Assembly (NCBI GenBank): GCA_014526335.1
Contig: JACTAT010000337.1
Location: 481,407-545,406, forward strand
DNA length: 64,000 nt
Direction: 5' to 3'
From: Chrysaora quinquecirrha
Lineage: Eukaryota; Cnidaria; Scyphozoa; Semaeostomeae; Pelagiidae
Shown here: positions 13,992 through 61,337 of the stretch, piece after piece
How the letters are laid out: each line of letters begins with the position of its first letter
Position numbering within the stretch: the stretch's first letter is position 1
Translations under genes and position numbers: made by a program
Notes under the pieces: generated by a model
Seen by the model: the letters and a program-made list of their open reading frames with translations, nothing else
What the model was told of the DNA's origin: nothing
Databases searched by the model: none

Positions 13992-14000
13992 CGAGTCCAA

Positions 14001-14187
14001 TAGACTTGCTCCAAGTCTATTTCCTTTCTTCATCAGTATTTTACAGCGGAAATAATTTCCTCGCGAAAATGCGAAGGAGCGAAAATTGAAAACGAGGCGG
14101 GACGGGGGGAAGGAAAGAAATGAAAGTGGAGGAGGAAATAGACTTGTAATCCTCGCAACCTCATGAATATTAATGAGCTTCATAACA
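14001..14187 (+). repeat. Left terminal inverted repeat of the DUF6589/RecQ element
   Basis: 187 bp pairing with 21859-21991. About 50 bp in its centre (GAAGGAGCG onward, including a G-rich run) is missing from the right copy. Confidence 0.93.
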
Positions 14188-14790
14188 TGTGATCAAACTC
14201 ATGCAGCCTTCAAGGGGGGGATGCAGAATTCTCAGAAACAAAAATGGCTGCTGTAACAACGCCGGTAAAAGTGACAAAAACTGTTACATCTGATTCTTGT
14301 AAGAGGTATTGCGCTATTTGTGCCCAAGATATTCAGTTAAAGTACAATAATCCAAAGGATCTGACTATTAATCTTTGGCGAAATGATAACAAGACAGATC
14401 ATTGTAAAGTTGTTGAGGATTTCTTGGCAAAATCTTTTTCGTGACAGTGATTTTAGAGTGGTTTGCAAATCTTGTTTCCGAGGAGCACAAAATTTCAAGA
14501 AAGCAAGGGATCAAAAGGTTCTTCAGCTGGAGTCAACGAGGAAGGAGATCGTACCATTGCACCTCTCCAAGCGTGTAAAAAGAGGAGTGCTGTCAGAAAT
14601 TCAAGCTGCTGACATGCAAGGAGCTTGTGGACGGCCTAAATCGAGGAGAAAAATCGAAGTCGGCGGCGGTGATGCAGATTCAGAAGACGTGGTCGTGAAC
14701 CCTTTCCACAGTTTTCCAACAGCCTTGCTCGGGCAAAACATGTCCCAACAGAGCAGCATAAAGGTTGATACAATTTATTATTATACCTTT

Positions 14791-14980
14791 ATCAATACAG
14801 TATTACCCCGGCACCAAGAAACTTCTTTTGTAAAACCAGGCTGCCTGGTTTCTTATAAATATTATATTAAATGTTATATTAAGCCAAATATTTGACAATA
14901 ACTACGGTGCCATCTGGCAGGCTGCAGCTTCTTCTATCTTATAAGTCGGTGTCTTAGTGGTGGGGTAATACTGTATTGAT
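14791..14980. mobile_element. 190-bp MITE
   Basis: Perfect 19-bp inverted ends, ATCAATACAGTATTACCCC and its complement, with weaker pairing inside (GGCACCAAGA against TTAGTGGTG). It sits in intron 1 of the DUF6589-like gene. No clear target duplication. Confidence 0.85.
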
Positions 14981-15085
14981 TGTTCCTTTGGCAGGTCCAC
15001 ATCGACATTGCTTGCTGTCCAATTTTTAAACCTGCTTAAACAATGTACAAGCAATGCCTACACTTACTGTACTTTATTCAGGATA

Positions 15086-15477
15086 CACGTATTTTTTTAT
15101 AAGAAACTGCTTATAAAGAAACTCAACTCCTCAGATTGCCAACAATTAAAAAACTCCAGTAATGGGAAAATAAAACTTAAAGAAACTATTTATGTTAATC
15201 ACGGAAAACCCTAGCATATTTTTACTTTATTTCCGCTTGTTTCCTACAGTATATCGCATTACTCGCAAGGTACTTGAGCAACATCTAGACATTGAAAAAG
15301 GCTTCTGAAAACATTGTTTTGAAAATGTTTATGAAGGCACAGGTAGTGAACATTGAAGATTGTTATGGAACATTTAAGAAACTTGTAAGAAACTCTGAGT
15401 ACTGAAAATTTGATAATTTTTAAGAAACTTTTAGCACTGGCCCAAATTTTTAGTTTCTTATAAAAAGCATGTATGTG
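15086..15477. mobile_element. 392-bp CAC...GTG element with TAAGAAAC repeats
   Basis: Begins CACGTATTTTTTTATAAGAA and ends TTTCTTATAAAAAG followed by CATGTATGTG, with TA on both sides (15084-15085, 15478-15479). About seven copies of (T)AAGAAACT in both orientations cluster near the two ends. It is non-coding, in intron 1 of the DUF6589-like gene, and belongs to the same structural group as 15497-15754, 28521-28896 and 52989-53363. Confidence 0.8.
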
Positions 15478-15496
15478 TACAAGTCCTCCTAGTATA

Positions 15497-15754
15497 CACT
15501 CATTTTTTACTAAAAAAGCTGAGGTCGGGTGCTGTGTAGAGTTGATTTAGTTTTTGCCACTGGCTCCAAGTAACTTTGGTCAAAACAGTTGCTACATGTT
15601 ACTGTGCAGTATCAAAACAATTTTGAGTGACCTAGACCTGCAAATTACAAAAGTTTCTTAGCTTTGTACATTCAGGTCAAGTAGTTTCTTAAGTTTGAAA
15701 AAATAGAGCCTCTGTTTCTTTTGGGTTGTTTCTTACTGTATGAGAAACTGAGTG
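15497..15754. mobile_element. 258-bp CAC...GTG element with TAAGAAAC repeats
   Basis: Starts CACTCATTTTTTAC and ends GAAACTGAGTG, flanked by TA at 15495-15496 and 15755-15756. Several GTTTCTTA words lie in its right half. It lies 19 bp from the similar element at 15086-15477 and shares that element's octamer. Confidence 0.65.
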
Positions 15755-18672
15755 TAATCCATGACCATGTAGAAGTCCTTGTTTTTATATATTTTGAAGG
15801 TAATAGTTATTGAAAAGTCTGGGATGATGCTGCATGCTGTCATAAGTGATGACCATAAGAGCCTTGTTCGTGGAATCATTGCCAATGATCCATCTGTCAT
15901 TGCAGAATGTGCCTTCAAAAATTCAGAAATAAGAGACAAAATGATAAAATGTGTGACCAAAGAAATCTCCAAGGATTGTTGCAAAATAAGTACTTCAAGT
16001 CCCTCACCATTTAAATTTGACAAAATACAATACAGATTCTTTGAAGGAAGAAGATATTAAGTTATTGACCTCTGCATCATATACACCTGGAGCTATAGAA
16101 AAGCCAGAGCTGCAGCAAACATGTAATTATGCAGATGTAAATTTTAGCCTTGCAGGTGATAATGTTAACTTGTCAAAGAGTTCAAGGAAAACAGCAAAAC
16201 ATGATCAAAAGAAACAGTATAATTTGTTCAACTGCATTTCTACGAAGCACAGAGTCTCATATGACAAAGAAATTGCAAAAGTGGTTCCTACAGAGACAAA
16301 GCCAGCAGATGTACCCCTATCAATTTTTTTCATGGACAGAGAAGATAATGACAAGGTTCGAGGTGAATTCAAAACAATTATTGGTTGGACAGTTGCAGAG
16401 TTACGCACAGATTTTGGTTGGATGAAAAAATATCTGCCAAGTAGAATTGGTCATGAGTACATGAAGGAAACTGCTACTAAATCAGAACAAGTAAGTTCAG
16501 CACTTCCAAGATTTATGTACTTTTTGGAATGTTTTTAACTATGATTATGAATAATGTTATTAACAAGCACATAGCACTTAACCTTTTGCAATATTGCCTG
16601 GAGTATAATAAAACTGAAAGAAATAAGTGATATGTTGTATTGAATCACATGATTTCCATTTCAATTGATCTACAGTATGTTCATTTGATTATCAGGTGTG
16701 TCTAGGCGTATTACATAAAGATGAAAATATCAGTGATGAAATGATCGATATTATGACATTTTGCATCAGTTTGTACCAAGTGATGGAGAAAGTATCAAAC
16801 CAGTTTTGTGTTTTGGAGATGAGCTCACATGTGAGAGGTTACACAATGCCCAGGAGGACAGAAGGGACTCTTCAACTGTGACAACTAGACTTGAAGGACT
16901 AATTGGCTGCATAGCTGACTTCCATGCTTTTGGCAACTTTTTGGGTGTAAGAGTTTTCCTTTCAAATTTCATTCACCCATTTATGTCCTGAAAAAGATGA
17001 TAAGAAAATTTCTGAAGGGTAAAGATAATCAATAAATTTGCACTATTTGCATCCTTGCATTAAGTCTGATTGATTTTATTTTAAGTGCCCAAAATAAAAA
17101 GAGCACTCTGGTGTCAATAGTTTGGAAACAAAGATTTCATTTTCATTTGATGCAAACTCATGTGATAGCCTACAATGACTTGAGACAGACTTAAAAATTA
17201 TGACACAATTCTTCTGTTCTCCATGTAATTCAAGTGTAAGTCAATTGGTTTGGTGCTTTTAAAGGTATCAGTAATTCTGAACAAAAAATAAATTTGATTT
17301 ACAGGTTGTGTGGCACCTTCTTTATGACAAAGATTCAAGTCGTGATATTGGTACTCTTTATGCTGCAAAAAACTTCCTGCATGCCACAAAAGTTCAGGAT
17401 GATCCTATGAAAGATGTTGATGCAACCATTGATTTCCTGACAGAATACACAAAAGCCATGATACTTGCTGCACTTGAAGAACTTATTCAACAAAAAAAAG
17501 TTACAGCAAATCATTTACCATTGCAAGAAGAGACAGCAATGAATGACATATTGGACCTTATGGTTGACATTGCTTTTCCTGCCATTCACTCTCAGTTTGA
17601 AGATGAAAATATATACAAGTGCAAGCACTGCAACAAGAGCTTCAAAAAAGTGGCAACCCTGCGAAAACACATAAAAGCAAAGCACTCAGATGATTCAAAT
17701 GTGAAATATGTGGAGCACCCTTTGATGGAACCACAGGAGAAAAAATGTCATTATTGTGGAAAGGAGACCAGAAGCCAAGCAGCATTAAAGAAACATCTCA
17801 CAAAATTCCATCCAGATGTATTGACAGGCTCAAGAGATGATGAGAATCAGTTTGAGCCAACAACATCCAATAACTTTGTCTGTGAGGTTTGTGGAAAAAG
17901 GTACAAGCGAAGTGGCAATTTAAGAAATCACCTAAGAGATGCACATGCACCCAAAAGCATTTCAGTCAATGACGAAGAGCATGTCACAAGACAGCCTAGT
18001 ACATCCTCAGTTTCTGACAACGTTTTGCGATATTCCTCAAATGCTTTGGCATTGGGGCTCCTTGCACTTGATTTTGAGGATGCAAGACAGCATGCAGATG
18101 GTGAGCGTATACTGCGTCTTTACAAGATCATTTTTCTCCTGTACCGATTAGATGGTCGAACCAAATATACATACTACACATTTCTCATGTTTGCCCAAAT
18201 CTACTATTTGCTGCCACCAAAGCTGTCTTTTGACCTTGTCTGGAATCGCTTTATAAATAGCACTGGGAAAGTGGATAATAATAAGGAAATAGATAGAGCA
18301 GTGGAACACTGGAACAAATTATTCAAGTTAGACTGCAGAGAGTTTCAAGGTAAAATCACAGATGAAAGCATCAAAAGGGCAAGCAATTCTTACCAAGAGA
18401 TGGAAGCTGCTATGAACAATTTTGACACTGTCAACAATTTAAAGAAGCCATCAGGGAAGCACAGAAAACGCAACACAAATAGTGATATCATTGCTCTCAG
18501 TCAACAGTTGATAAAAGGAGAAGTCTTCAGAGAAAAGCCTGGGAGATGCCATTCTGCCTTTCCTACTTTCCCTTCAAACATATTTGCTGGAATAGATGTT
18601 CCTGTCTTAAAGGAATGGATGTCAAAAAAGTTAAAACATTTTAAAGAATTGAATGTTTATGCCAAATTGTGA

Positions 18673-19179
18673 AAGCCAGCTGTTCATTAAAAGAAGGATT
18701 GAGCAAGGTACAAAACTGTCATTGAAATGAAAATCATACCGCAACATCCCAAAAATGTCCCACTTTAGGAAACCACAAAACTTGATCATTATGCCTATTG
18801 TATCACAGAAACTGGTTTTTTTCTCCACTTTAACAATGGTCCAGTTACAGTGTGTTTAACCCAATTCCATATGGCCTTTTTCCTAGCTACCATTTATGTG
18901 GGGGGATTCTTTCCACCCCCTCTGAAAACTGCCTTGGACTCGTCAGAATTCAATACAACTTGGCACACTTACAGAGCAAGTCATTTGTAGTACATAGCGC
19001 AATTTGGGTGTGGATGTCATGCCTTATGACATCACAGTGATGTCATAAAGTTGAAAATCTGTCAAAATCAGGCTTTCAAGATAAATTTGAATACAAAGAA
19101 GATTTTGCATGAACTTTATGCAGTTTCTGATTGTCATGTTAATGCATTTAACACAACACTGAAGATAAGCACTGGTTCT
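18673..19179. other. Shared 3' region of convergent genes, with a perfect palindrome
   Basis: Non-coding stretch between the ends of the DUF6589-like and RecQ-like genes. At 19024-19048 TTATGACATCAC and its complement flank a single A, a 25-bp perfect palindrome with TGACATCA at its core. A similar hairpin with the same core occurs at 24808-24836 within another element. It could fold in RNA from either strand; I see no sign of a protein. Confidence 0.6.
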
Positions 19180-21716
19180 CTAATCATCACTTGCATAAGA
19201 GGAGGAATCCGAAGATAAAACAAAATTTGCCCTTTGTTGCTGGCCTCTTTCTGTATCCTCATCACTGCTGTTTGTACTATTGTCTTCATCACTGTCAGTG
19301 GATAAATTGCAGTCTTTTCCATTCTTATCATGTTTGTCCAAGTCACTTGGTAGAGAAATTCCTTTGTCATTAATATGATATTCTTCATTCAACTGATTTA
19401 TCATGCTGTGTATCTCAGTAACATGATCGATGTTAAGAATACTTGTTTTTAGCCAGACTGACTGCTTCTTCTGTAACCTTTCCACATTGTCAACAATTTC
19501 ATTTACAGCACACAGTGGAAAACCAGATGTGAAGTCTGCTCCAACAACAGATTTTTTACAGGTCTCTGTTAACTGATTGTGGTAGTCCAAAAGCAGCCTC
19601 TCTAAGTCCTTTCTGTAAGCATCTGAAAAAACTTCTTTCATTCGTAAGTTTCTGTCTAAATCCTCATCAAGTACTACTTCCTTCTGCTGAAATGACATTT
19701 CTATAGGAGAACTGATATTTTCTTTGTCAGACACACATCCATTATCTGCACAAAAACAGGAAGTAGCACAAATGTCACAACAATCATGTTTAACTATGCT
19801 TGAATCAACATTACAACCAAAACATTTGAGAATCACTTTGCGTCTACAAACATTTGTGTTGTTCAAATAAAATTTCATTTTATTTTTTAATTTTCTTCCT
19901 GATGTACACCTTGGATAACGTATTAAGACGGCATTGCTTGGCTGTCCATCCGGGCCTGCTCTGCCACTTTCTTGTACATAGTCATCAATGTCAGTGGGTG
20001 GACCAAAATGAACAATCAGATGCAAATTTTTGCAATCAACTCCCATTCCAAATGCCGTTGTTGCTATTAAAACTCTAACTGTGCCATCATCTTGGCAGTT
20101 ATATGCAGGATTGAACTCAGTTGTAAATTTACTATAATCTGCTTCTCAATTTCTGGCAAGGCAGTTGCAGTCAGTACGATAAATGGTACCTTGCTTTGCA
20201 ACAGGGATCGAAGCTCATGAAGCCTGAAATATGATTCCCTGAAGGCCTGAGTCTTTCCACTTGATGATCCCCTATTAGAGGAAATATGTCATGTTAGCAA
20301 TTAGTTAATACAACAAAGAAGTGTGAAGTGGAATTCCACGATTTCATGACTTGTTGCTTTCTGCATCATGATTTTTTATTGTATCAGGTTAATGGCCTTC
20401 CCCTTCCAGAATAGATTGAATTTAATTACTTGTTAATCTCTTGTAAAGTGGGAATTCTAATCATTTAACTTCAAAAACATCACTAATTTATCACAGCAAT
20501 ATACTGGTAGAATTATACTGCACATATAGATTTTACTTTAGTCTTATTTGGCACTTGCACATCACACAATACCCAAGAAAGCTCATTGAAAAAGATTTTG
20601 TTTTGAGACATTCATCTTCCTTTTTTATTAGAATGTGATGCTGGTTGAAGTTAAAGATGAAGTTTCATGAACATTTTGAAAAGAATAGGTCAATTCATAA
20701 AATGCCCAAATCTTGATTTAATGACCTTCTCTTAAATATTCATGAAACTGCTGAAGGAGTCAACAATAATATAAGTTGTACTGTACATGTCAAAGGAAAT
20801 TATTTTATATGATATTGATACCTTTATTCCATTCTACAAGTATCATCAGTTTGAATCACAATGCTGCCAAAAATGGTCTGTTACAGTTGATGTCAGTTCA
20901 GGGGTAGGGATATGGAAATGAGATTTCAATGGGGCAGGGCAGGAGTACTGCTTTTATAGAATTACAATATCGAGGAATTATGTACTTTCCACAAAGCACA
21001 TATGTCAGTCTGCAGAGTATGGCACATTTCAACGAGATCTCCAGTGACAGTGTGCAAGGAGAAATTTCATTTTGTTCCCTATAGGCCTAGTCTATTTTGA
21101 ATATAGCTTTGAAGCGACACTAACATACGAATAATACCCTTACCATTTTACTACACAATGAGCCTCATCAATTGCAACCATTCGTATTTCACATGAAGAT
21201 CTAAGAAAGGACCTGTGGGTATCCAGCACTGCTTCTGGAGAGGCAAAGATAATCTGTGATGTGGTGGTGAAATCTTCTTTATCTGGCTTTGAATGTCCTG
21301 CAGTTGTTTTGGAAGATGACAGCTCCTTTCGCACCAAGGCGGCTGACTTTGATTTTGCCACCACTAAATTTGTTCATCTGGTCTTCAATCAAGGAAATAA
21401 GAGGCTGAATGACGAGAACTTGCGCCTTGTGAGGCATTGAACTGATCAGCTCTCCAGTCTGAGGGAAGGCTGTCGATGGTAGGCGTTCATGTTCGCAAGA
21501 AAGCAATCTGTCGTACAAGTCAAATACAACTGGAGCCAACTGATAAATCACAGACTTTCCACTTCCAGTTGGCTGTGATACAAAAATATCTCTTCCTTGC
21601 AGCATCCCAGTCAAGGCACTCCTTTGAAAAGGTTTCAACGTGCGAAATTCTAAGAAACTCTGGGCAGCATCCACTGCTTTTTCCATGAGAGAAAGATTCA
21701 CTACTCGCGCCGCCAT
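19180..21716 (-). pseudogene. RecQ-like DNA helicase within the 8-kb element, internally deleted
   Basis: Two exons. Exon 1 (21716-21144) has FVSQPTGSGKSVIYQ (Walker A), QVLVIQPLISLIEDQMNK (motif Ia) and AIDEAHCVVKW (DEAH box). A one-T insertion near 21365 shifts the frame between them. The donor GTAAGG at 21143 and the acceptor at 20272 rejoin the frame as KW-GSSSGKT. Exon 2 (20271-19180) has VPFIVLTATAL (motif III), then jumps almost directly to DDGTVRVLIATTAFGMGVDC (motif V): the part holding motif IV is missing. Motif VI reads YVQESGRAGPDG, with Pro where RecQ proteins have the second Arg. A Cys-rich zinc-binding segment (CCDICA) and an acidic Ser-rich tail follow. RecQ enzymes unwind DNA 3' to 5'; this copy should be inactive. 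Confidence 0.85.
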
Positions 21717-21858
21717 TACTTCCAACTTCATCCACATCCACAACAACTGATGCCAACAACTGAGTACCCCCGTTTCGCGAAGATCTGATGAAACATGATT
21801 GGTTCATCTGACCTTCACAAAGCGTGCCGCGGCGTACACGATTCTGTCTGCTTGCATT

Positions 21859-21991
21859 GTTATGAAGCTCATTAATATTCATGAGGTTGCGAGGATTACA
21901 AGTCTATTTCCATTTCATTGCATTTTCGCGAGGAAATTATTTCCGCTGTAAAATACTGATGAAGAAAGGAAATAGACTTGGAGCAAGTCTA
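21859..21991 (-). repeat. Right terminal inverted repeat of the DUF6589/RecQ element
   Basis: Read on the minus strand it matches the left end from TAGACTTGCTCC through CGCGAAAATGC, then from GGAAATAGACTTGTAATCC to CTTCATAACA. Confidence 0.93.
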
Positions 21992-22133
21992 CGAGTCCAA
22001 CAGCCCAACAGAGCCAATGTGAAGGGTGTGACTAGGAAAATCTTGTGGGGGTTTTTTCTAATTCTATTTTTGAACCATTAACTTGCTTTTTTACTCTCCA
22101 ACACCTTTTTTCGTATTTTCTCTAAAGTTTCAA

Positions 22134-37155: not shown

Positions 37156-39251
37156 ATGGCGGAATCTAGCAGTGTTAAAGCCCGCACTGAGGAAATGCAC
37201 AGCCTGAAATCCGGCATTGTCAGTGAGAGAGACAAATGGATTGTCGAGTGGTACGTTGCTGTTGTTAAATATTTTAAAGTTAAAGTTAAATATTTGCTAG
37301 CAAGAGAAAAATTCGTCTGGTTTTCATTTTTTTGAAGGCCGTTCATCCTCGCTGATAATAGGCTTAGGCCACAAGGCAACGGCAAGACATGCAGCATAAC
37401 CTTTTGTGTCTTATCACATAGAGGCAGTCATGAACGCTGACACGAGGCTAGGTCAAAAGGGTAGATGAAAACATCCATGTCATGTTGGCGTTGTTCTCTC
37501 TGGGCTGATAAATATTTTGTGAATACTTTTCATGTAAATAAAATAAAAATAACCAAAATAAAAATTTCGATTTGAAATGAAACCAAACTAGAAAAGTGAC
37601 CCTTGAAAAAAGTTGGCTACACATGTCCTGATTATGAACTTTTTCTGATGACGCCTGGTCCATACCTGCCATATCAGTCCATTAGAAACCATACTACTCA
37701 AGGATGCCATTCAATCACATTTGTTACGCATGTTAAACATTACTAAAACACCTCAATGTTTCTATGACAAAGTCCTCATCACTCATTATAACCCTTCAAT
37801 ATTCTATCTACACCTTTTACATGACCACACTGACTTTACCAAAGCTAATAATGTGGGCAAGTTTATCGAAATTCAATTGTAAAACCCAAACAGGATTTAT
37901 TTACTGGCTCTTGATTTAACTTAAATATAGCTCTGTAGCCATGCCAAAAATGAAATATATTTATTATGTCTTGTTAAACTTCCAAAGGATTTTTTTTACT
38001 GTTTCCTTTTTTGATGACAGGTTGTCCAAAAATCTAGTGTTACAGCAAAAAAGCAAAGTAGAAGTGAAGAATGTCTGTGAGAGAATCCAGAAAACATTAG
38101 GAGAAGCTGTACCAGCAAATGTGATTGGTAAGTGTTTTCGTGTTGTTTTTGGCTCGAGAGTGAAAAATTTTCAAGACAGCAAACGAGTAAGATGCTACTA
38201 TGGTGTAAAGTTTTTGTATGGAGATGTTGATAGCAGGGATGAGGCAGGTGTAGAAATGGTGGTATCAAATTGTGAAGCACAAAATGAGATTGCAGTTGGC
38301 CAGAAAAAGGAGCAGTTGGATCAAACAAAGTTAGTGCCTGAAAGTGTCCGTTTTAGGAAAGCTGTAAATTTATATAGAAATGAAAGGATGGAGAAAGAAA
38401 AGCTGCAGGTTACTCTAGAGAAAGAAAAAGAGCTTTCAAAATACAGCAAAAGTCTGCAGTTGCCATCATCTATGTTCCTGGATAGTGATGAGTTAGTGGA
38501 GGTGCCTGATAGTAAAAATCATGCAGGTACCTTTGGGTCTTGCTGTCTGTTTACATATAGGGGTATTGATGTTGCTGTCAAAGCATATCATGAGCTGGAG
38601 AGTTTCTCTGATGATGCAATGAAACGGTTAGTGCTCAGGGAGGCAAATGTGCTGCTTAATTTGCATGCTCACAGAGGGATCCCAAAGTTTCTCGGTGTAA
38701 TCATTGAAAGCAAGCCATACCGTCTTGTTACAAGTTTTCATGGGATTAACAGAAAATCCACAACAATCAGAGAAATTCTTAAAATTGAAACCAATGAAAT
38801 TGTCGATGCTGTGCCAAAGCACAAGGAAGACTGGTGGAAAGTCTTTGCAAGCCTTGCTGATGTTTTGCTGCATGTCCACACAACTGGATATGTGCATGGA
38901 GACATAAAGTCAGACAATGTCTTGGTAGAAGCTGGAATGTCTGCTGTCATTGTTGATTTTGGAAAAAGTGTTCTTTCCACAAAATCAAAATTAAACATAA
39001 TCCCATCTGCTGAAAGAGATGAATACAAATTAAAGTATCCATGGGTAGCTCCAGAAATTGTTAATGGTATCAAGCCACTGTCAAGGGAAAGTGATGTTTT
39101 TGCTTATGGATGTCTTGTCAGCAAGGTTGTTAAAGCCTGTAAGTTGAAAAGCAAGAGACTTCATGACATTATATCAAATACAGTTGTTCCTGATGCAGAC
39201 AAAAGAATTTGCCTCACTAGAATACAAAATATATTGTCTGGATATTTTTAA
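37156..39251 (+). CDS. Protein kinase domain protein, two exons, about 441 aa
   Basis: Exon 1 (37156-37250) starts MAESSSVKARTEEM and ends in mid-codon after VE. The GTACGT donor and the AG at 38019-38020 join it as EW-LSKNLVLQQK. Exon 2 runs to the TAA at 39251. The N-terminal half is Lys/Glu-rich with a likely coiled coil (MEKEKLQVTLEKEKELSKY). The kinase fold follows: GTFGSCC (glycine loop), VAVKAY (ATP-binding Lys), LREANVLL (helix-C Glu), YVHGDIKSDNVLV (catalytic loop, with HGD instead of HRD), IVDFGKSV (DFG) and WVAPEI (APE). All catalytic residues are present, so activity is plausible; substrate is unknown. It is the longest unbroken gene here apart from the integrase-protease exon. 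It could be a host gene or element-borne; no inverted ends flank it. Confidence 0.78.
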
Positions 39252-40167
39252 AAAAGTATAGACTGCTTTTAAAGATTTATAAATCCCAAAAAACCCCACA
39301 CATGCTTTCTTATGATTATTTTTTCATAATCAGAAGAAAGCATTCTTGATCACATCTATGATACTGTAAATGATGAATCCAACATGCCCTTGCCTAAATT
39401 AAGGTGCCTATTCCGTATGCACAAACAGTATATTCTAAAAATTTACAAACTTTTGGCATCATTTTCATTGGATACACCTGGTATGTCAAATATGGTGGAG
39501 CTATTCTAAAATCATCATTATTGATGTTTTCATATGAACTCCCAAATATATTTCTAAAATAATCACAAAGGGTATTTGAATTGTTCATTTATAGTAGACA
39601 AAATCTGACAAAAAGGGCATGTTTACTGGTTGCAATAATAGATTTTTTGCTATCACTTAACAAAGTATATAATTGCCTTTGCTATCCAGAGCAATAAGAT
39701 CCTTTTTCTTTAAGTTATACAGTATGGTTTAGACTGATTACGAAAATACAGTTAATCCCATTAAGCTTAATTACAATAGTGCCCTAAATAGGTACTTTAG
39801 TTGCAGGGTTTGATATATTCTTAATCCGACTTCCTTTACCAGAGGAGACATGCCCTAGTTCCAGAAAGTTTTTACTTTGCACAATTTAACATTAGAATTC
39901 AATTCTTATTCACTGAAAAATTGAAATATTTCCCCTTAATGCCCAGAAGATGTTGCCAGGCAAATTTGTCCTCAGCAAGAAACCTCACTGAGTTAAGCTC
40001 AAGCCCCACGTCAAGGGTTTGCCCATTGCTTGAGTTTCCGTTTTTAAGCAGAAGGAACCCCACCAGTTCTTTGGCAACATTAAAACTGGGGGAAATCAAA
40101 CTGCAACAAATTTTTTTTAATGTTAAATGCTATTTACAACTGTAAAGTAGGTAGAATTTAATTGCAA
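39252..40167. other. 3' flank of the kinase gene; nothing else recognised
   Basis: AT-rich. The first 60 bases after the stop have no AATAAA signal that I can see. Remaining sequence shows no coding or repeat structure. Confidence 0.45.
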
Positions 40168-41130
40168 AGTAATATCCAAAGATAAAGATATAATGCAATG
40201 ACAGCAGCATCCAGTGATAACATTGTCGATTGAGGAGTAATATCCAAGATAAAGTTATAATGCAATGACAGCAGTATCCAGTGATAACATTGTCGATTGA
40301 AGAGTAATATCCAAAGATAAAGATATATGGCAATGACAGCAGCATCCAGTGATAACATTGTCGATTGAAGAGTAATATCCAAAGATAAAGATATAATGCA
40401 ATGACAGCAGCATCCAGTGATAACATTGTCAAAGATAAAGATATATGGCAATGACAGCAGCATCCAGTGATAACATTGTCGATCGAAGAGTAATATCCAA
40501 AGATAAAGATATATGGCAATGACAGCAGCATCCAGTGATAACATTGTCGATTGAAGAGTAATATCCAAAGATAAAGATATAATGTAATATCCAAAGATAA
40601 AGATATAATGCAATGACAGCAGCATCCAGTGATAACATTGTCGATTGAAGAGTAATATCCAAAGATAAAGATATATGGCAATGACAGCAGCATCCAGTGA
40701 TAACATTGTCGATTGAAGAGTAATATCCAAAGACAAAGATATAATGCAATGACAGCAGCATCCAGTGATAACATTGTCGATTGAAGAGTAATATCCAAAG
40801 ATAAAGATATAATGCAATGACAGCAGCATCCAGTGATAACATTGTCGATTGAAGAGTAATATCCAAAGATAAAGATATATGGCAATGACAGCAGCATCCA
40901 GTGATAACATTGTCGATTGAAGAGTAATATCCAAAGATAAAGATATATGGCAATGACAGCAGCATCCAGTGATAACATTGTCGATTGAAGAGTAATATCC
41001 AAAGATAAAGATATAATGCAATGACAGCAGCATCCAGTGATAACATTGTCGATTGAAGAGTAATATCCAAAGATAAAGATATATGGCAATGACAGCAGCA
41101 TCCAGTGATAACATTGTCGATCGAAGAGTA
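40168..41130. repeat. Minisatellite array 1, 67-68-bp unit, about 14 copies
   Basis: Unit contains CAGCAGCATCCAGTGATAAC and AGAGTAATATCCAAAGATAA. Copies differ mainly by ATATGG/ATAATG before CAATGACAGC. One unit is short (near 40430) and one has an extra 34 bp (near 40571). Long minus-strand open frames occur in all three frames only because the unit lacks stops there and is not a multiple of three. Confidence 0.97.
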
Positions 41131-41177
41131 ATACGAGCAGAACGATTAATACGATCGAAGAGTGATATCAGCAGCAA

Positions 41178-43448
41178 CGATAAAGACAAGGGAATGATGA
41201 GAAAATTCAGCAACAGTTCTTCTTCAGCAGCAACGATAAAGACAAGGGAATGATGAGAAAATTCAGCAACAGTTTTTCTTCAGCAGCAACGATAAAGACA
41301 AGGGAATGATGAGAAAATTCAGCAACAGTTCTTCTTCAGCAGCAACGATAAAGACAAGATAATGATGGTAGAATTCAGCAACAGTTCTTCTTCAGCAGCA
41401 ACGATAAAGACAAGGGATGATGGTAGAATTCAGCAACAGTTCTTCTTCAGCAGCAACGATAAAGACAAGGGATGATGGTAGAATTCAGCAACAGTTCTTC
41501 TTCAGCAGCAACGATAAAGACAAGGGATGATGGTAAAATTCAGCAACAGTTCTTCTTCAGCAGCAATGATAAAGACAAAGGAATGATGGTAGAATTCAGC
41601 AACAGTTCTTCTTCAGCAGCAACGATAAAGACAAGGGAATGATGAGAAAATTCAGCAACAGTTCTTCTTCAGCAGCAACGATAAAGACAAGATAATGATG
41701 GTAGAATTCAGCAACAGTTCTTCTTCAGCAGCAACGATAAAGACAAGGGAATGATTAGAAAATTCAGCAACAGTTCTTCTTCAGCAGCAACGATAAAGAC
41801 AAGGGATGATGGTAGAATTCAGCAACAGTTCTTCTTCAGCAGCAACGATAAAGACAAGGGAATGATGAGAAAATTCAGCAACAGTTCTTCTTCAGCAGCA
41901 ACGATAAAGACAAGATAATGATGGTAGAATTCAGCAACAGTTCTTCTTCAGCAGCAACGATAAAGACAAGGGATGATGGTAAAATTCAGCAACAGTTCTT
42001 CTTCAGCAGCAACGATAAAGACCAAGGAATGATGAGAAAATTCAGCAACAGTTCTTCTTCAGCAGCAACGATAAAGACAAGGGAATGATGAGAAAATTCA
42101 GCAACAGTTCTTCTTCAGCAGCAACGATAAAGACAAGGGATGATGGTAGAATTCAGCAACAGTTCTTCTTCAGCAGCAATGATAAAGACAAGGGATGATG
42201 GTAGAATTCAGCAACAGTTCTTCTTCAGCAGCAACGATAAAGACAAGGGATGATGGTGAAATTCAGCAACAGTTCTTCTTCAGCAGCAACGATAAAGACA
42301 AGGGATGATGGTAAAATTCAGCAACAGTTCTTCTTCAGCAGCAACGATAAAGACAAAGGAATGATGGTAGAATTCAGCAACAGTTCTTCTTCAGCAGCAA
42401 CGATAAAGACAAGGGAATGATGAGAAAATTCAGCAACAGTTCTTCTTCAGCAGCAACGATAAAGACAAGGGATGATGCTAAAATTCAGCAACAGTTCTTC
42501 TTCAGCAGCAACGATAAAGACCAAGGAATGATGGTAGAAGTCAGCAACAGTTCTTCTTCAGCAGCAACGATAAAGACAAGGGATGATGGTAGAATTCAGC
42601 AACAGTTCTTCTTCAGCAGCAACGATAAAGACAAGGGAATGATGAGAAAATTCAGCAACAGTTCTTCTTCAGCAGCAACGATAAAGACAAGATAATGATG
42701 GTAGAATTCAGCAACAGTTCTTCTTCAGCAGCAACGATAAAGACAAGGGATGATGGTAAAATTCAGCAACAGTTCTTCTTCAGCAGCAACGATAAAGACC
42801 AAGGAATGATGAGAAAATTCAGCAACAGTTCTTCTTCAGCAGCAACGATAAAGACAAGGGAATGATGAGAAAATTCAGCAACAGTTCTTCTTCAGCAGCA
42901 ACGATAAAGACAAGGGATAATGGTAGAATTCAGCAACAGTTCTTCTTCAGCAGCAATGATAAAGACAAGGGATGATGGTAGAATTCAGCAACAGTTCTTC
43001 TTCAGCAGCAACGATAAAGACAAGGGATGATGGTGAAATTCAGCAACAGTTCTTCTTCAGCAGGAACGATAAAGACAAGGGATGATGGTAAAATTCAGCA
43101 ACAGTTCTTCTTCAGCAGCAACGATAAAGACAAAGGAATGATGGTAGAATTCAGCAACAGTTCTTCTTCAGCAGCAACGATAAAGACAAGGGAATGATGA
43201 GAAAATTCAGCAACAGTTCTTCTTCAGCAGCAACGATAAAGACAAGGGATGATGGTAAAATTCAGCAACAGTTCTTCTTCAGCAGCAACGATAAAGACCA
43301 AGGAATGATGGTAGAAGTCAGCAACAGTTCTTCTTCAGCAGCAACGATAAAGACAAGGGAATGATGAGAAAATTCAGCAACAGTTCTTCTTCAGCAGCAA
43401 CGATAAAGACAAGGGATGATGGTAAAATTCAGCAACAGTTCTTCTTCT
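41178..43448. repeat. Minisatellite array 2, 54-56-bp unit, about 41 copies, 777-bp higher-order period
   Basis: Unit contains TTCAGCAACAGTTCTTCTTC and AGCAGCAACGATAAAGACAA, with variants GGGAATGATGAGAAAA, GGGATGATGGTAGAA, GATAATGATGGTAGAA and CCAAGGAATGATG. The order of variants repeats: ACAAGATAATG occurs at 41910 and 42687, ACCAAGGAATGATGAG at 42021 and 42798, ACCAAGGAATGATGGTAGAAG at 42520 and 43297, each 777 bp apart. So a 14-unit block has been duplicated. The short link 41131-41177 mixes words from arrays 1 and 2. Confidence 0.97.
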
Positions 43449-46400
43449 AACAAGATTGGAGGTAGGTTTTAATGTTTCGTGTTTATAGCTTTATTAATTT
43501 CCCAATTTTACCATTATATTTATTCTGTATCATGTATAAGTCTTGCTCTAGTCACCAGAGACCATTGTGAAAATCGTTCATAATCCTTCGTTGACATTAG
43601 TATCCAGCCTTCTCCTTGATAATGTATAGGGTCCCAGAGACCTTGATATTGATCCCTAAGAAATCTCCTCATAAGTGGCGTAAGATCTTCTATTGTAAGA
43701 AATGCACCAACTTTTGAATTATTTGAGGCTCTCCAAGCAAGAAAATTGTTGAGTTGGTCTTTTGAAACTATTGCAAAGTGGTGGCCAGTGATAATTTTAT
43801 TATTATTCTTCTTTAATTCTTCAAATAGATACCTTCTTACATCTGAGTTCAAACCAAGGAGGATTATGTCTTGACCATAAAGCATTCTAAGAGTTTCTTC
43901 CTAAAAAGGATAAAAATGAATAGACTTGAATGGGAAATAGTTTTACCCCATTGTCTAGTTTGAAAAGTAGTCTTTTCATGTCAAGGAAATATAGAGTTTC
44001 TAATTAGACAAAGTAGAAAGGAACTTACATCAATTTGTATTTGCTCTTGGTCGAATCTTTTAAAATAATCCACCAGGCTATTGTCACTTACATTTTCTGG
44101 AAAAGAAATTCAAAAGTCTTCAGGATAATTGGATGATGATCCCAATTCAATTAAGTCTTTAGATGGGAGCATCGATAGCTATGTGGTAAGGGGCAGCGAA
44201 CTCTTGCCTTTATCAGAATCGGCAAATTTGTTCTATCTGTTATGTTTTTTCTTAGTTTTTCTATCTATCTTTACTATGTTGCTTCAGCTGGCGACCTCTT
44301 GTCTTGCTTCCATCACCTCTTCCCTTACGCAAGGAAACAATCTCATCCCACAAGAAGCTGGTCGTCAGGTGATTTTCATCTCGTCACATCTCATCTCATC
44401 TCTCATCTTCGTAAAGGGTTTGGCTTCATTGGGATGCTGGGAGTAATAGCCTAAGATTCCAAATTTCATTAAAGGGCGAATACAAATTTATTGTGGGATG
44501 AAATCTCCCATTTCCAACAGCAACCTATGTGATCTTCAAATCTCAAGCAAAATGTTTCACTTTCAAATATAGATATTATAGATATTAAATTTGTTAATTA
44601 TTACCTCTCCACAGACTTGGACTTGATAGGTCTGCGTGTGTTCCACTGACAATGTGCCTGGCCAACATCTCTCTAACATCATCCATGTCGAAAATGGTGA
44701 AGTCTGCTGCTGTATAATTTGCAAAAGAAATCAACCAGCAAATGGCAAAAAGACCACATTGAGTTGATTCATCTTGTCCATTGAAAGGAAGAACTTTTTC
44801 AGTCAAGGTAAGAGCAGCAGTGTAGTTGTTGTTAAACAAAGCCTGCTTGAGATTCTTAACTTCAGACTCATGGTTAAGGCCCAAAGAATAACAAATTGAG
44901 AATGTTGATGAACTGAAATCAACTAAGAAAACCCACCAATGCTGATCAACATTTGCGGGAAATAAAATTCTATTCAGGAAAGGAGGCAGACATTTTTTGA
45001 AACCTTTCTTTGATAATGAGTAGAAAGGGTTCTTTATGAGCTGGTAGGTTATAAGTGGATCTACTACATATGCTGATGGACACTGGGTGTTAATTGCTTG
45101 GCCTACAGCATGAATTATACTGTCATTGACCAGCGAATTACCCTTCAGTGTCCTTAGATCGTGTGCATTAACGTGAGGAAACAAATCTGACACTTCCTGG
45201 CTGTCATCCACAACAGAAGAGTCTCTCATGATATCATGGGGAGAAAAGTCCTTCTTCTTCTGAAAAATTTCGTTTTCGTCCTCGACAATAAGAACATCAT
45301 GTCGGACTTTAAATTTGTAAATTCCAAAACCTTGACTATACGTCAGCTGCCACAAGTAAACAAGACAATTAACACTGCTGTACTCCAAAACACCTTCGAT
45401 ACTGTCAAGAATAATGCAGTCTTTCTCACGAAATACCATTGTGATATAATGGCTTTGAGCATTGATCAGCATCAACCTTTCACTTTGCTTTACATCTAAA
45501 AATCGTAAAAGAGCCTGATACATGACCTCAGGCTCGTTTTCAAGAGAAGAGGGATCTGCATTTGTGAAAAAAGAATGCAAATGCGTATTTATCTGGGCAT
45601 ATTCATACCCAGCATGATTGGCTGCATTCAGCACAACATCGATGTTGTAATCACCTGCAAGTGATCTAAAATTTTCCAGATCATTGTTGATGTTTTGTAA
45701 AGAGGCCTGTTGAATCCAGCATGCATCAGCAATTCGATTCATTGTCTCAGGCTCGATGGAAGATAGAATTGTGTTGTTAAGGGCACACATTCCACATAAT
45801 GTGGTACTGCCTTGCATTTGGACATGCATTGGTGAATTTCCGTGCATGAAAGTTTTGATGAAAATCTTCTCCTTCAGAGAGGAAGGATATGGCATGAATG
45901 CAACATCAAGAAAATATTTAAGATTTTTCATGGTTGAAGATGACCAGCTTTCAGGTTCCTGACTGCTAGATATCAGCTTCAGCCTGAAATGCTCAAGCGC
46001 AATTCTTGTTTCTGCATCCTCTTCGTTCGTCAAGAGAAAGGAACACTTATTAATGGCATTAGCAAACAGCTTTTTTAAATGGACATGGTCTGCATCTGTT
46101 GAATTCGGATTTACATTTGATTCCAATATTACAAAGCTGGTCAAGCTTGTTTTCTCATTTCTGCGTTTTAAAGGGGGAGAGCTACTACTCTTATGTTTAG
46201 TAGAGCGTTTTCTTTTATCTTTTTTTGACTTGTGCGCGGTGGATTTTGCAGATGGCAATTTCTGTTTCACCCCAAATCTTTCAGCAAAAGAGAGTGCCAT
46301 TTGCTGGCAGCAAGCATGCTGACAAAAGCACTGTGGGTCTGTAAAACAGTCGACACAATTATGGCTGGTATCTATATTGAGGTATTCCAAAAGAATATCG

Positions 46401-49400
46401 CTCAACCAGACTCTTCGTTTCCTTTCCCATGCCACGGAGCCATAGAGAAAATTCGAGAAGCCAAGCGTTTTCAAATCATCCATGCCCCTGGTAAAAAGGT
46501 CATGAAGATGATGTTGCTTAGCAGGATCAGCTTCTCCATAAAGAACAGACAAAACACCGTAGTCAAGAGTCTGAAAATATTTACCGAACAGCTTATTAGT
46601 ACTCTTTGGTTCGGTTTTGCTTCTTTTAAGCTTGTTCCTGTACATGGTACGCCTTGTTTGCAAGCCAAAGTCACAAATAGCATCAAGAAGTTGTTTTTTG
46701 CTTCGCAATGAAGCGGATGCTTCAGGAGAGAGGCTATCATTGGCTTCTGCTGTTTTATGCAAAACCATTTCCCCTTCGAAAAAATTCTTCTTGTATGTAG
46801 TCTGCCCATCAGGTAGTTGCAAGCGATACATGCCCTCAGGTAATGTCTCAAGCACTTTAGCAATAACATTAGTGGGCGCAAAAGGATCTTGGGTCCTTTT
46901 AACACTGGAGGAAATTTTAAAGGCGGGATTTCTGATAAGAACAGAATCTCCAACACTAAATTTATCGCCTGGAGAATGCTTAATGCTTCGCTCAATGTTT
47001 CTATGAATAGTCAACTCTGTTGACTCAAGAATGCGGAGCTGCAACACATGTTTAGAGAATGTATTGCGGAAAAGAGAAGAAGAGAATTTGACAGTGCTGA
47101 ATTCTTCTTCATGCTCAACTTGAGAGTCGTCTTCTTGAGAATCGTTGATACCCTCAAGACTCTCAGATGTCAAATCATTGGCAAAAGTATTGGCAAAAAG
47201 AGTTTTGGAGAGAGATGTTCCAAGGCAAGATTGCATGATGTCTTCAACAGAGCATGATTCAGAGCAATCAACAGAAGAAGCATTGCTTAAAACATCAACT
47301 TCATCGTCAACCTCAATATCACCGTCATCAACTGCCACTCCTGTCGATTCTCCCTCAGTATCGAGATGAAATGTGCTGTCATCAGGAACAACAGTGAAGT
47401 TCAGGGAACTTGCTTCTCGGTTTCTGTATACCCGAAAAGGGATATCATCGATGGTGGAGTGATAGGACTTGTTTATCTTATCTGCTATTCCGGGGAGTAG
47501 CAGAGGCCATGTTTTACCTTGCTCCTCTAAAGAGCAGTTTTGAAGAAGCCTTCGAAGATATTCCTTTACAGTCTGATTAAGACGTTCCACTTGCCCTTGG
47601 TGCTGTGGAGTATATGACTTGCCTCTAACCACGCGAAAACCGTAATCCTTACTTAACTGCCATAAGCTTATTTACAAATTCTTTGCCGTTGTCGGATTGA
47701 AGAATTTGAGGAGGACCCTCGACATCAAACAGAAACTTGACTACATTGTATACATGTGAAGCTTTCTTCCGTTGCAATGGAAATAGCCAACAAAATTTGC
47801 TGAAACAGCACTTGATTGACAAAATGTAACGAAAGCCCCACTGATTATTTCTCATGAATTCCCTTTTTTTTTAGGAGCAAGATCAATAAGATCATACTGG
47901 AGGCGTTCGTGTGGATGGAAAGAACGGATGGGCTTTGGAGGAGGAGCTTCAGTCATTCTCAAAGGTACATTGAGACGGCAAGTTTCACATTCTTGAAGAA
48001 ACTTACGGATCTCTTGAAACACACCCTTGTAATAAAATTTCAAATTGAAAGATTTGCTGAGAGCATTTATTCCCCCAGGAAGACAAGATTTAGAGCCATC
48101 AGCTGTCTGTGTACAGTGAAGACTCTCAAGAACCTTCACAAGAATCTCTTTGTTAATGATTTCTCTCGATTCTAAGAGGAGTTTCGTGCCTTTGTTGTAC
48201 GTGTTGTGAATTACAACAGGCAAACCATCGTACTGACTGAGAACAAAGTTGCCGAGAATGTCTAATTTCAGTTGGTAAATGGGTTTTATTTTATTTTTAT
48301 TATAAAAAGGTTGCGGAGATTTTTTAACGAATTTTTCAACAGCTAACCTCTGTTCTTTGTTGCAAAATGCTGCAGAATGTCTGAAATGGTTAGGCATATC
48401 GTATCGAAGAATTAAAAACTTCAATAACATATTTTTCAAAGGGCCAGAGAAAGGACCTCGAAATGACAATTCGGAAGAGTCGAAAGGCAATTTCAACACT
48501 TCCTCGATCTGTTTGGCATTCCTGTCCAAAGGAATTTGAAAAGATGCATTGGAAGAGTTAGTTTCGGGCTGTTCAACAGTTACTGAAGTCTGAGAAACAG
48601 ATGGTTCATGGACAGCAGAAACATTTTCTTGACCTGAAACCAAAACGATTGATTATTCAATTATAATTGTTTTAAATACTGAAAATTGTGTTTATACACT
48701 TAAGGTTCAAAAAGTATTGCACCACCATTTTAGCAAAGTTTAGTGAAACTAGGAATTGACTGACTATCTTTAGTGAAAACACAATCGTACAAAAACTGCA
48801 TTGCAAAATCTCCGCCTGAAACATTGTCGACATTGATACCTTTTAGTTCATCCCGGAAAGCCCTTTTCAACCAATCACACATTCGGTTATTTAACACATT
48901 CTTTGTAGGCTATCATCTCAAAATATCTTAAGCCTAAACATCTAAAAACACAAGAGGAGATCCATTTCGGTCCGTTCCCAAACAGGTACCGATAGGCCTT
49001 CCATGCAAACCAGACTAGTTTGGCTTCAATACCGTACCAAAGCGGTAAGGATAAAAAAGCGTCCTTGTTTTGATCGGATCCGTTTTGGTCCCGTTTGAAC
49101 GTATGAATCCGATTCACAAAGCGCACGGTGAATAAATGAAGATTTTTTTCTCATGAAAATCCAAGTTAACTTTTTGCAGAGGCCTTGATATTTAGGCATC
49201 AAACCTTCTCAATCCTAGATATATGCGAACTTTTCACTTTGATAATCTAATTGCTTCAATTAAACGGCCGTATCGTCTTCTAGTCTTTACGGAAAAATCA
49301 GGAAAACATACTGTCTCTTATTCACAAAGCAAACACATGTTATTCAAAAACCAGCAGAATGGTGAATATTTTCGCGCCAAAAGATTCAGTCTGGGGATTA

Positions 49401-59827: not shown

Positions 59828-61337
59828 AGATATCCCACAGACTGAGAAAAGTTGGTAAGCCTAAAAGTTATGAAAATAAACAGTAAGAGAACTTTTGAAA
59901 CACTGGGTAAATCTTTTCAGCCCTCCTCGTATTGTCTCTGTAGTGCTCTAGAGGGATTGATATGTAGTTTCTTGTTGTTCGTGCAATGTGTCAGAATTGC
60001 AATTGAATTTTTTGAAAATTTACACTGACTGTAATCTTCTGGGAATCTTCTGCCCAATGGTTATGCTGCTTTACATGCTGATAATTAGTTAAGTGCTGGT
60101 ATGCCTGCCTTCAAATAGCATTCTTATTCAAATGTGCAACGAAGAACCTAATTGGGGAAAAGAATGGAATTCTGTATGTACTCTGTGCGTACTCATGTAA
60201 TGCAAATTTGAATCATCTTGATATCATTTTTTTCATTATTTAAAGGGACAAGTGCAGAACGAGCAAAGCAAAGTATGTGGAAGGAGATTCAGTGAAATAA
60301 AGCATGCCTTCAGAGTCCCATTCTCTAAACTTGGGATCATACAAACCCAGGTACCTGATGTACGAAAGCTAGCACTGACAGCTACTGCAGACAAAGCAAA
60401 CAGAAAAAACATTGTAAAATCTTTGTGCATGAAATGATGTGTTATGTTCAGAGTTAGCCCCAATAGACCAAACATTAGACTTTTTGTTTTGAAAAGGACA
60501 AAGCTGGAGGTTCGTGAGCATCAATTGATGGTGGACGGACTTGAGAAAGAGCAGAAAAAGTTTCTCAAATCAATGATTTACTGTCAGAGCATAGAAGCTG
60601 TTGCAAAATATTCACACACTTCAAGTTGGAGTCGAGCAATACATTGTTTCATTCATCGCCCTGTAAGTCGTCATCAAAATTGCCCTTGGTTGCATGTACC
60701 ACAGAAAGACCTCAGACAAACAGAAGAACAAGATCCTCGATGACATGTCCAAAGAAAATGGATTTTATAGAGTTGTTGTGACAACTACGTCTTTAGTGAT
60801 GGGTGTTGACATAAAGGACATACCGTATGTTATCCATTACGGCTCACCTCTGGACATAGAAGATTACATCCAAAGGGTAGGTCAAGCTGCATGGGATAAA
60901 TCGATTTCATTTGCACTTATGTCCTGCACGGGCCGACAGCTTGAAAAGGCTTCAATACCAATGAAAGATTATGCTTCACTCAAAGATGGCTGATATCAAG
61001 AAGCTCTTTACTGTCTGTTAGACCGTGCATGCCATGTTGTAAGGCCCAACCTCCAACACAAATGTTGTTCTTATTGCATTTCTATCTGAAATTGCAATGG
61101 TGGAGGTTGCTTTTTTCGCAAACCACCATTTATGTGTACTGACGACGATCGTCTGTAACCCTTGAGATTGGTAGATGAAGGAGATAAAGAGTCGCTGTCT
61201 TCACTGCTGAATGAGTACAGGTTAAAAGTCGAGCATTTTAAAGAATCAAATTATTTGTTTACACATCCACAGTTCCTACCAAGCTTTACAGATGATATGA
61301 TTGCTGATGTGATTGAACAATTGGCACTAGTAAATAG

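Follow-up and report, generated by a model that had tools for sequence, protein, structure and literature searches.

Helitrons are eukaryotic DNA transposons that encode a Pif1-type helicase and a Rep nuclease and that, to our knowledge, have neither terminal inverted repeats (TIRs) nor target-site duplications. Another group, AcademH, was reportedly defined in 2020 by Kojima, in a paper (Mob DNA 11:15) whose title presents it as helicase-encoding and as present in animals and fungi. Here we describe, in a 64,000-nucleotide stretch of contig JACTAT010000337.1 (GenBank assembly GCA_014526335.1; "the window"), an element that has long TIRs, a 9-bp duplication and two genes on opposite strands, one for a DUF6589 protein and one for a predicted RecQ-type helicase. 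This element is very probably a defective member of a new AcademH-type DNA transposon family, probably a cnidarian one, in which the DUF6589 protein would serve as a DDD/E transposase and the helicase would assist it; the family is new as far as we have seen, its kind having been described in 2020.

According to excerpts of PMC10045372, AcademH elements have duplications of 9 or 10 bp and AcademX elements, their sister lineage, duplications of 3 or 4 bp, a difference tied there to the possession of a helicase versus a nuclease, and excerpts of PMC10799480 report AcademH at low copy number from three phyla of fungi. Excerpts of PMC9587614 list Academ among the DDD/E superfamilies and describe KolobokH elements with a RecQ helicase, Kolobok duplications of TTAA, and one rhodophyte Kolobok with RecQ on the complementary strand. 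Set beside these descriptions, the window element resembles AcademH as a helicase-encoding DNA transposon of animals or fungi whose 9- or 10-bp duplications match the 9 bp found here in seven of seven copies, and the comparison, which is by description only, shows no difference. It shares with KolobokH the combination of a DDD/E transposase (here a predicted one) and a RecQ helicase, and with one Kolobok the placement of the helicase on the opposite strand, and differs in having varied 9-bp duplications instead of TTAA. AcademX, which carries a nuclease instead of a helicase, was ruled out because the duplications are not 3-4 bp; a Helitron, likewise a eukaryotic DNA transposon with a helicase, was ruled out because TIRs and a 9-bp duplication are present, and the helicase here is of the RecQ type by sequence. 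An initial annotation, made from the letters of the window, knew of no named superfamily with this gene pair; that statement fails because AcademH and KolobokH, the latter a second DDD/E lineage with RecQ, are described in these excerpts with a helicase.

A bounded transposon with two convergent genes

The element spans 7,991 bp (14001-21991) and is a real TIR transposon with well-defined bounds: long TIRs close it at both ends, the same perfect 9-bp sequence stands on either side, and two convergent genes lie between (Table 1). The TIR arms are identical over their outer 72 bp and again over an inner 54 bp, and an internal stretch is absent from the right arm. Each arm begins with a 19-bp tip, TAGACTTGCTCCAAGTCTA, that forms an inverted repeat of its own, with a stem of 8 bp; allowing up to three mismatches, this tip occurs within the window only at the two element ends (mean 0.00 in 100 shuffles).

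Table 1. Features of the element, in window coordinates
Feature	Position	Strand	Remarks
Left target-site duplication, CGAGTCCAA	13992-14000	none	Perfect, 9 bp
Left TIR	14001-14187	+	Whole or partial matches elsewhere in the genome at 97-100% identity
Left terminal palindrome, TAGACTTG-CTC-CAAGTCTA	14001-14019	+	Folds at -5 kcal/mol as single-stranded DNA; equalled by 2 of 200 shuffles
Third TAGACTTG half-site, left TIR	14139-14146	+	Candidate transposase site
Transposase exon 1	14244-14763	+	Frame breaks within; open in copy L015; start codon and splice site predicted from sequence
Transposase exon 2	15800-16490	+	Lacks about 590 bp at 16049/16050 that L015 and L017 retain; splice sites predicted
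Transposase exon 3	16696-16946	+	Motifs GDELT and DFH, with Asp codons 16818-16820 and 16917-16919, respectively; frame breaks 5' of GDELT; splice sites predicted
Transposase exon 4	17305-18672	+	C2H2 fingers inside DUF6589; NKEIDRAVEH, candidate Glu codons 18304-18306 or 18286-18288
Helicase exon 2	19180-20271	-	Helicase_C and RecQ zinc-binding region; lacks about 280 bp near 20093 that L015 and L017 retain; splice site predicted
Helicase exon 1	21144-21716	-	DEAD domain; frame breaks within; open in copy L017; start codon and splice site predicted
Right TIR	21858-21991	-	Without an internal stretch present in the left TIR
Third TAGACTTG half-site, right TIR	21899-21906	-	Seen in the sequence
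Right terminal palindrome	21973-21991	-	Identical in sequence to the left tip
Right target-site duplication, CGAGTCCAA	21992-22000	none	Perfect, 9 bp

Pfam searches of open reading frame (ORF) pieces matched DUF6589 (PF20231) in exon 4 (E 2.7e-16) and, under the family cut-off, in exon 3 (E 0.00031), both on the + strand, with three C2H2 fingers located inside the DUF6589 match. Of 48 aligned relatives, 45 retain the candidate Glu of VEH (the rest being two gaps and one Gln) and 43 a second Glu, six residues N-terminal of it. GDxLT is kept in all four of the alignment rows that reach it, four of 48. GDxLT followed by DFH was found in 12 distinct loci (17 motif matches), with a pattern that leaves some positions free and requires most of the motif, so that the count measures spread and not conservation. 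In a comparison with solved structures, the best 60 of 207 matches all fell on the zinc-finger stretch, the profile barely covering the GDxLT/DFH part. Relatives of the DUF6589 protein include proteins of Clytia and Hydra. The DUF6589 protein is most likely a DDD/E transposase, which would make this uncharacterised Pfam family the likely transposase of helicase-bearing Academ-type transposons.

On the - strand, DEAD and Helicase_C were matched above the cut-off and RecQ_Zn_bind below it; in copy L017, the two helicase exons match all three above the cut-off. Exon 2 of L017, compared with sequences in the PDB, gave as top matches the RecQ entries 1oyw (E 1.2e-22), which we take to be E. coli RecQ, and 4tmu, with BLM next. 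By sequence, the helicase is of the RecQ type. Protein relatives were named from Clytia, Montipora, Dendronephthya, Mytilus, Mercenaria, Amphiura and others, and one, whose name tag presumably denotes the jellyfish Aurelia, has 85% identity across half of the query. These results bear out what the initial annotation had described, namely a transposon defined to the base that encloses convergent genes for a DUF6589-like C2H2 protein, the likely transposase, and a RecQ-like helicase, with catalysis by the former still a prediction. A second RecQ-like helicase fragment of the same broad family, degenerate, with 35% identity and two TGA codons, lies at window positions 60751-61119 (+; C343:542157-542525).

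Other copies and damage in the window copy

The first 200 bp of the element have at least 14 matches in the genome from which the window comes (328 Mb, 740 contigs), 10 candidates having been scored. They include the window, four further long or cut copies (L015, L016, L017 and L018) and four elements of 200-225 bp (L019-L022) that consist of the two element ends and nothing else. The search for the same ends with 9-bp duplications that the initial annotation had proposed did yield further copies, L019-L022 being flanked by the perfect duplications AACTTTACC, ACTGTCTGC, TCTGTCTTG and CTAAAACCG. Every copy examined with both ends (the window, L019-L022 and, from a related family described below, L058 and L060; seven of seven) has a perfect 9-bp duplication, and the duplicated sequences are varied and, by eye, without a common sequence. 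Ends without the two genes had been named beforehand as a sign that a simpler element had swallowed those genes. Such copies exist; because they are made of the two ends alone, we read them as deletion derivatives and not as a simpler ancestor.

The window copy is defective. Besides the two deletions relative to its sister copies L015 and L017 (Table 1), it has broken frames in three exons (1 and 3 of the transposase, 1 of the helicase), each of which is open in a sister copy. All four transposase exons are open in L015, where the helicase has stops, and both helicase exons are open in L017, where the transposase shifts frame. L015 retains the left end alone intact and L017 the right end alone; L016 and L018 have a single end within the stretch examined.

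Two other elements are nested in the L016 copy (L016:850-4873 and L016:5058-8164), with perfect TIRs of 74 and 21 bp, respectively, and perfect 9-bp duplications. Past the point where the right end of L015 is lost, a related near-palindromic tip, TAGACTTACCCTTAGTCTA, is found (L053:114-132), perhaps from a sister element that took the place of that end or became joined to it. In L017 the left part (L017:1-336) has given way to sequence that, by eye, resembles the endonuclease region of a LINE.

The gene pair recurs on opposite strands

DUF6589 has at least 101 matches in the genome (92 of the first 240 candidates scored), which merge into 87 loci, and the helicase at least 125 (125 of 219 candidates scored), which merge into 123. 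A RecQ-like helicase lies within 10 kb of 59 of the 87 DUF6589 loci, 34 of these pairs being convergent, 25 divergent and none tandem. At 5 kb there are 34 convergent, 24 divergent and no tandem pairs (29 loci unpaired), and at 20 kb 34 convergent, 25 divergent and one tandem (27 unpaired). In 1000 placements that kept to the spans observed on the same contigs and randomised helicase position and strand, pairing within 10 kb averaged 5.1 and reached at most 13. The link between the two genes that the initial annotation saw once thus recurs far more often than chance allows, which indicates a lasting unit with its genes on opposite strands. Neither the opposite-strand rule nor the palindromic tips were found in the portions of literature retrieved with the terms AcademH, Academ, DUF6589 and RecQ or helicase with DDE transposase, a search outside which the defining AcademH paper, which may describe them, falls.

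At L058 and L060 the two genes are divergent, and the TIRs there start TACCCTGGGTACCAGAGCC and are flanked by perfect 9-bp duplications (CGGAAATAC and CTCAAATGG), found in a scan that demanded a duplication of 8, 9 or 10 bp; aligned pieces of the two loci are about 99% identical. The same kind of scan gave no convincing duplication-flanked ends for L055, L056, L057, L059 or L061, and L059 has a repeat-rich stretch between its two genes. Six left ends of the L058 type, that of L058 included, occur in the genome at 99-100% identity over 201 bp; a DUF6589 match lies near all six and a helicase near five, the exception being on C292. Since the six left ends are near-identical and have genes nearby, this family appears to have moved recently. 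The pair is found under different ends, a case that the initial annotation had named as contrary to its reading, at L058 and L060 and perhaps at L055 and L056, where the ends are unconfirmed; we read these as kindred families that share the gene pair, and not, as had been suggested for such a case, as host genes swallowed once.

A DUF6589 tree was built from 29 rows (30 of the 101 matches, those with sequence, less the duplicate-locus entries L025 and L050, with L061 added), comprising 14 convergent, nine divergent and six unpaired rows. The convergent/divergent flip follows this tree: a single clade (support 100/99) holds eight of the nine divergent rows, and the ninth, L036, a short row from a paired locus, falls within the convergent side. 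Such clustering was never equalled in 500 label shuffles, a figure that near-copies inflate, and the program warned that long branches meet. The helicase tree, which combines nine loci with 16 proteins selected from 120 listed of 358 found, repeats the three locus groups of the transposase tree and places them away from five RecQ proteins, of which two bear bacterial names; of its 25 rows, ten are less than half filled, and the make-up of four of the five RecQ rows is deviant. The matching locus groups suggest to us that transposase and helicase travelled together and that the layout flipped rarely. One genome offers three lineages, with near-identical long copies and short two-ended copies.

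Weighing the class assignment

Several points weigh against the assignment of the window element to an AcademH-type family. No copy examined combines both ends with both genes open, each gene being open separately. An empty site for the window insertion was not found among 22 matches to the joined flanks, two of which are the window's own flanks and 20 of which are short repeats of about 50 bp (query 16-70). Among the matches listed, 28 of the 87 DUF6589 loci remain without a helicase at a 10-kb limit, and one tandem pair appears at 20 kb. The nine transposon rows of the helicase tree are not united in a clade separate from other animal proteins. The assignment was made from described features (duplication length and helicase) and not from alignment with Academ sequences, and the name DUF6589 was not found in the literature searched; both points would suit a separate, unnamed DDE superfamily that took up RecQ on its own and merely resembles AcademH. 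Duplication length, helicase and inferred animal host nevertheless agree with AcademH as described in the excerpts cited, and we consider a separate superfamily quite improbable. No relative was found in a scan of viral contigs.

Mutator-like elements usually have long TIRs and 9-bp duplications, as here, and an ordinary element of this or a similar kind might have captured two host genes on a single occasion. The same gene pair, however, stands at 59 loci, in both layouts and with different ends, and a MULE transposase domain was not seen among the Pfam matches of eight ORF pieces (E up to 1; the best 25 of 35 matches for the largest piece). A Mutator-like element was ruled out for want of that domain and a one-off capture because the pair recurs, and we regard this explanation as barely credible. 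A KolobokH-like element, with a Kolobok DDD/E transposase, would account for the RecQ helicase and, through the rhodophyte example, for its position on the complementary strand (excerpts of PMC9587614); it was ruled out because the duplications are 9 bp long and varied in all seven copies, where Kolobok has TTAA, and is very unlikely. The initial interpretation as a whole is partly supported, and the observation on which it was built is confirmed.

Mechanism and palindromic tips

The ends, the duplications, the short two-ended copies, the other long copies and the recurrent opposite-strand pair are observed, and they form the basis of the following scheme. The DUF6589 transposase would bind the repeated TAGACTTG sites of the ends via its zinc fingers, excise the element and join it to the target with nicks staggered by 9 bp, which would give rise to the 9-bp duplications. 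The RecQ-type helicase most likely acts alongside, at the ends, the target or the donor gap. It may open either of the first two or help to remove the leftover strand, and the short two-ended copies could be mobilised by the proteins of the family.

The 7-bp stem TAGACTT/AAGTCTA is common to two sister families, with a 5-nt middle of GCTCC in one versus ACCCC or ACCCT in the other (L055/L056), whose ends lack confirmation by duplication; TAGACTT also occurs within the presumed TIR of the latter. The ends of the divergent family look unrelated, yet their tip reads TACCC-T-GGGTA. As single strands, the two 19-nt tips tested fold well (-5 and -3.8 kcal/mol), whereas the divergent-family tip folds weakly (-0.4 kcal/mol, equalled by 106 of 200 shuffles), which speaks against a hairpin role there. 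A hairpin-dependent DDE mechanism, in which the tips are obligatory self-palindromes, the transposase and the opposite-strand RecQ act on an extruded or single-stranded hairpin end, and the helicase is part of the cleavage machinery, seems unlikely to us; that the palindromic tip represents two head-to-head transposase sites is an equally good reading. Any mechanism would have to account for two concrete features, the opposite-strand rule and the palindromic tips, and the family provides material for asking why a DDE transposon needs a helicase.

Elsewhere in the window

Two long open frames of 1025 and 266 amino acids lie at 44594-48652 (-), the shorter with an integrase zinc-binding match (PF17921) below the cut-off; from their sequence they are perhaps an LTR- or Ginger-like element. 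Two adjoining tandem arrays occupy 40161-43447, one with about 14 copies of a 68-bp unit and the other with 41 copies of a 56-bp unit, and a 443-amino-acid open frame at 37920-39251 (+) has a protein kinase domain (E 3.2e-21).

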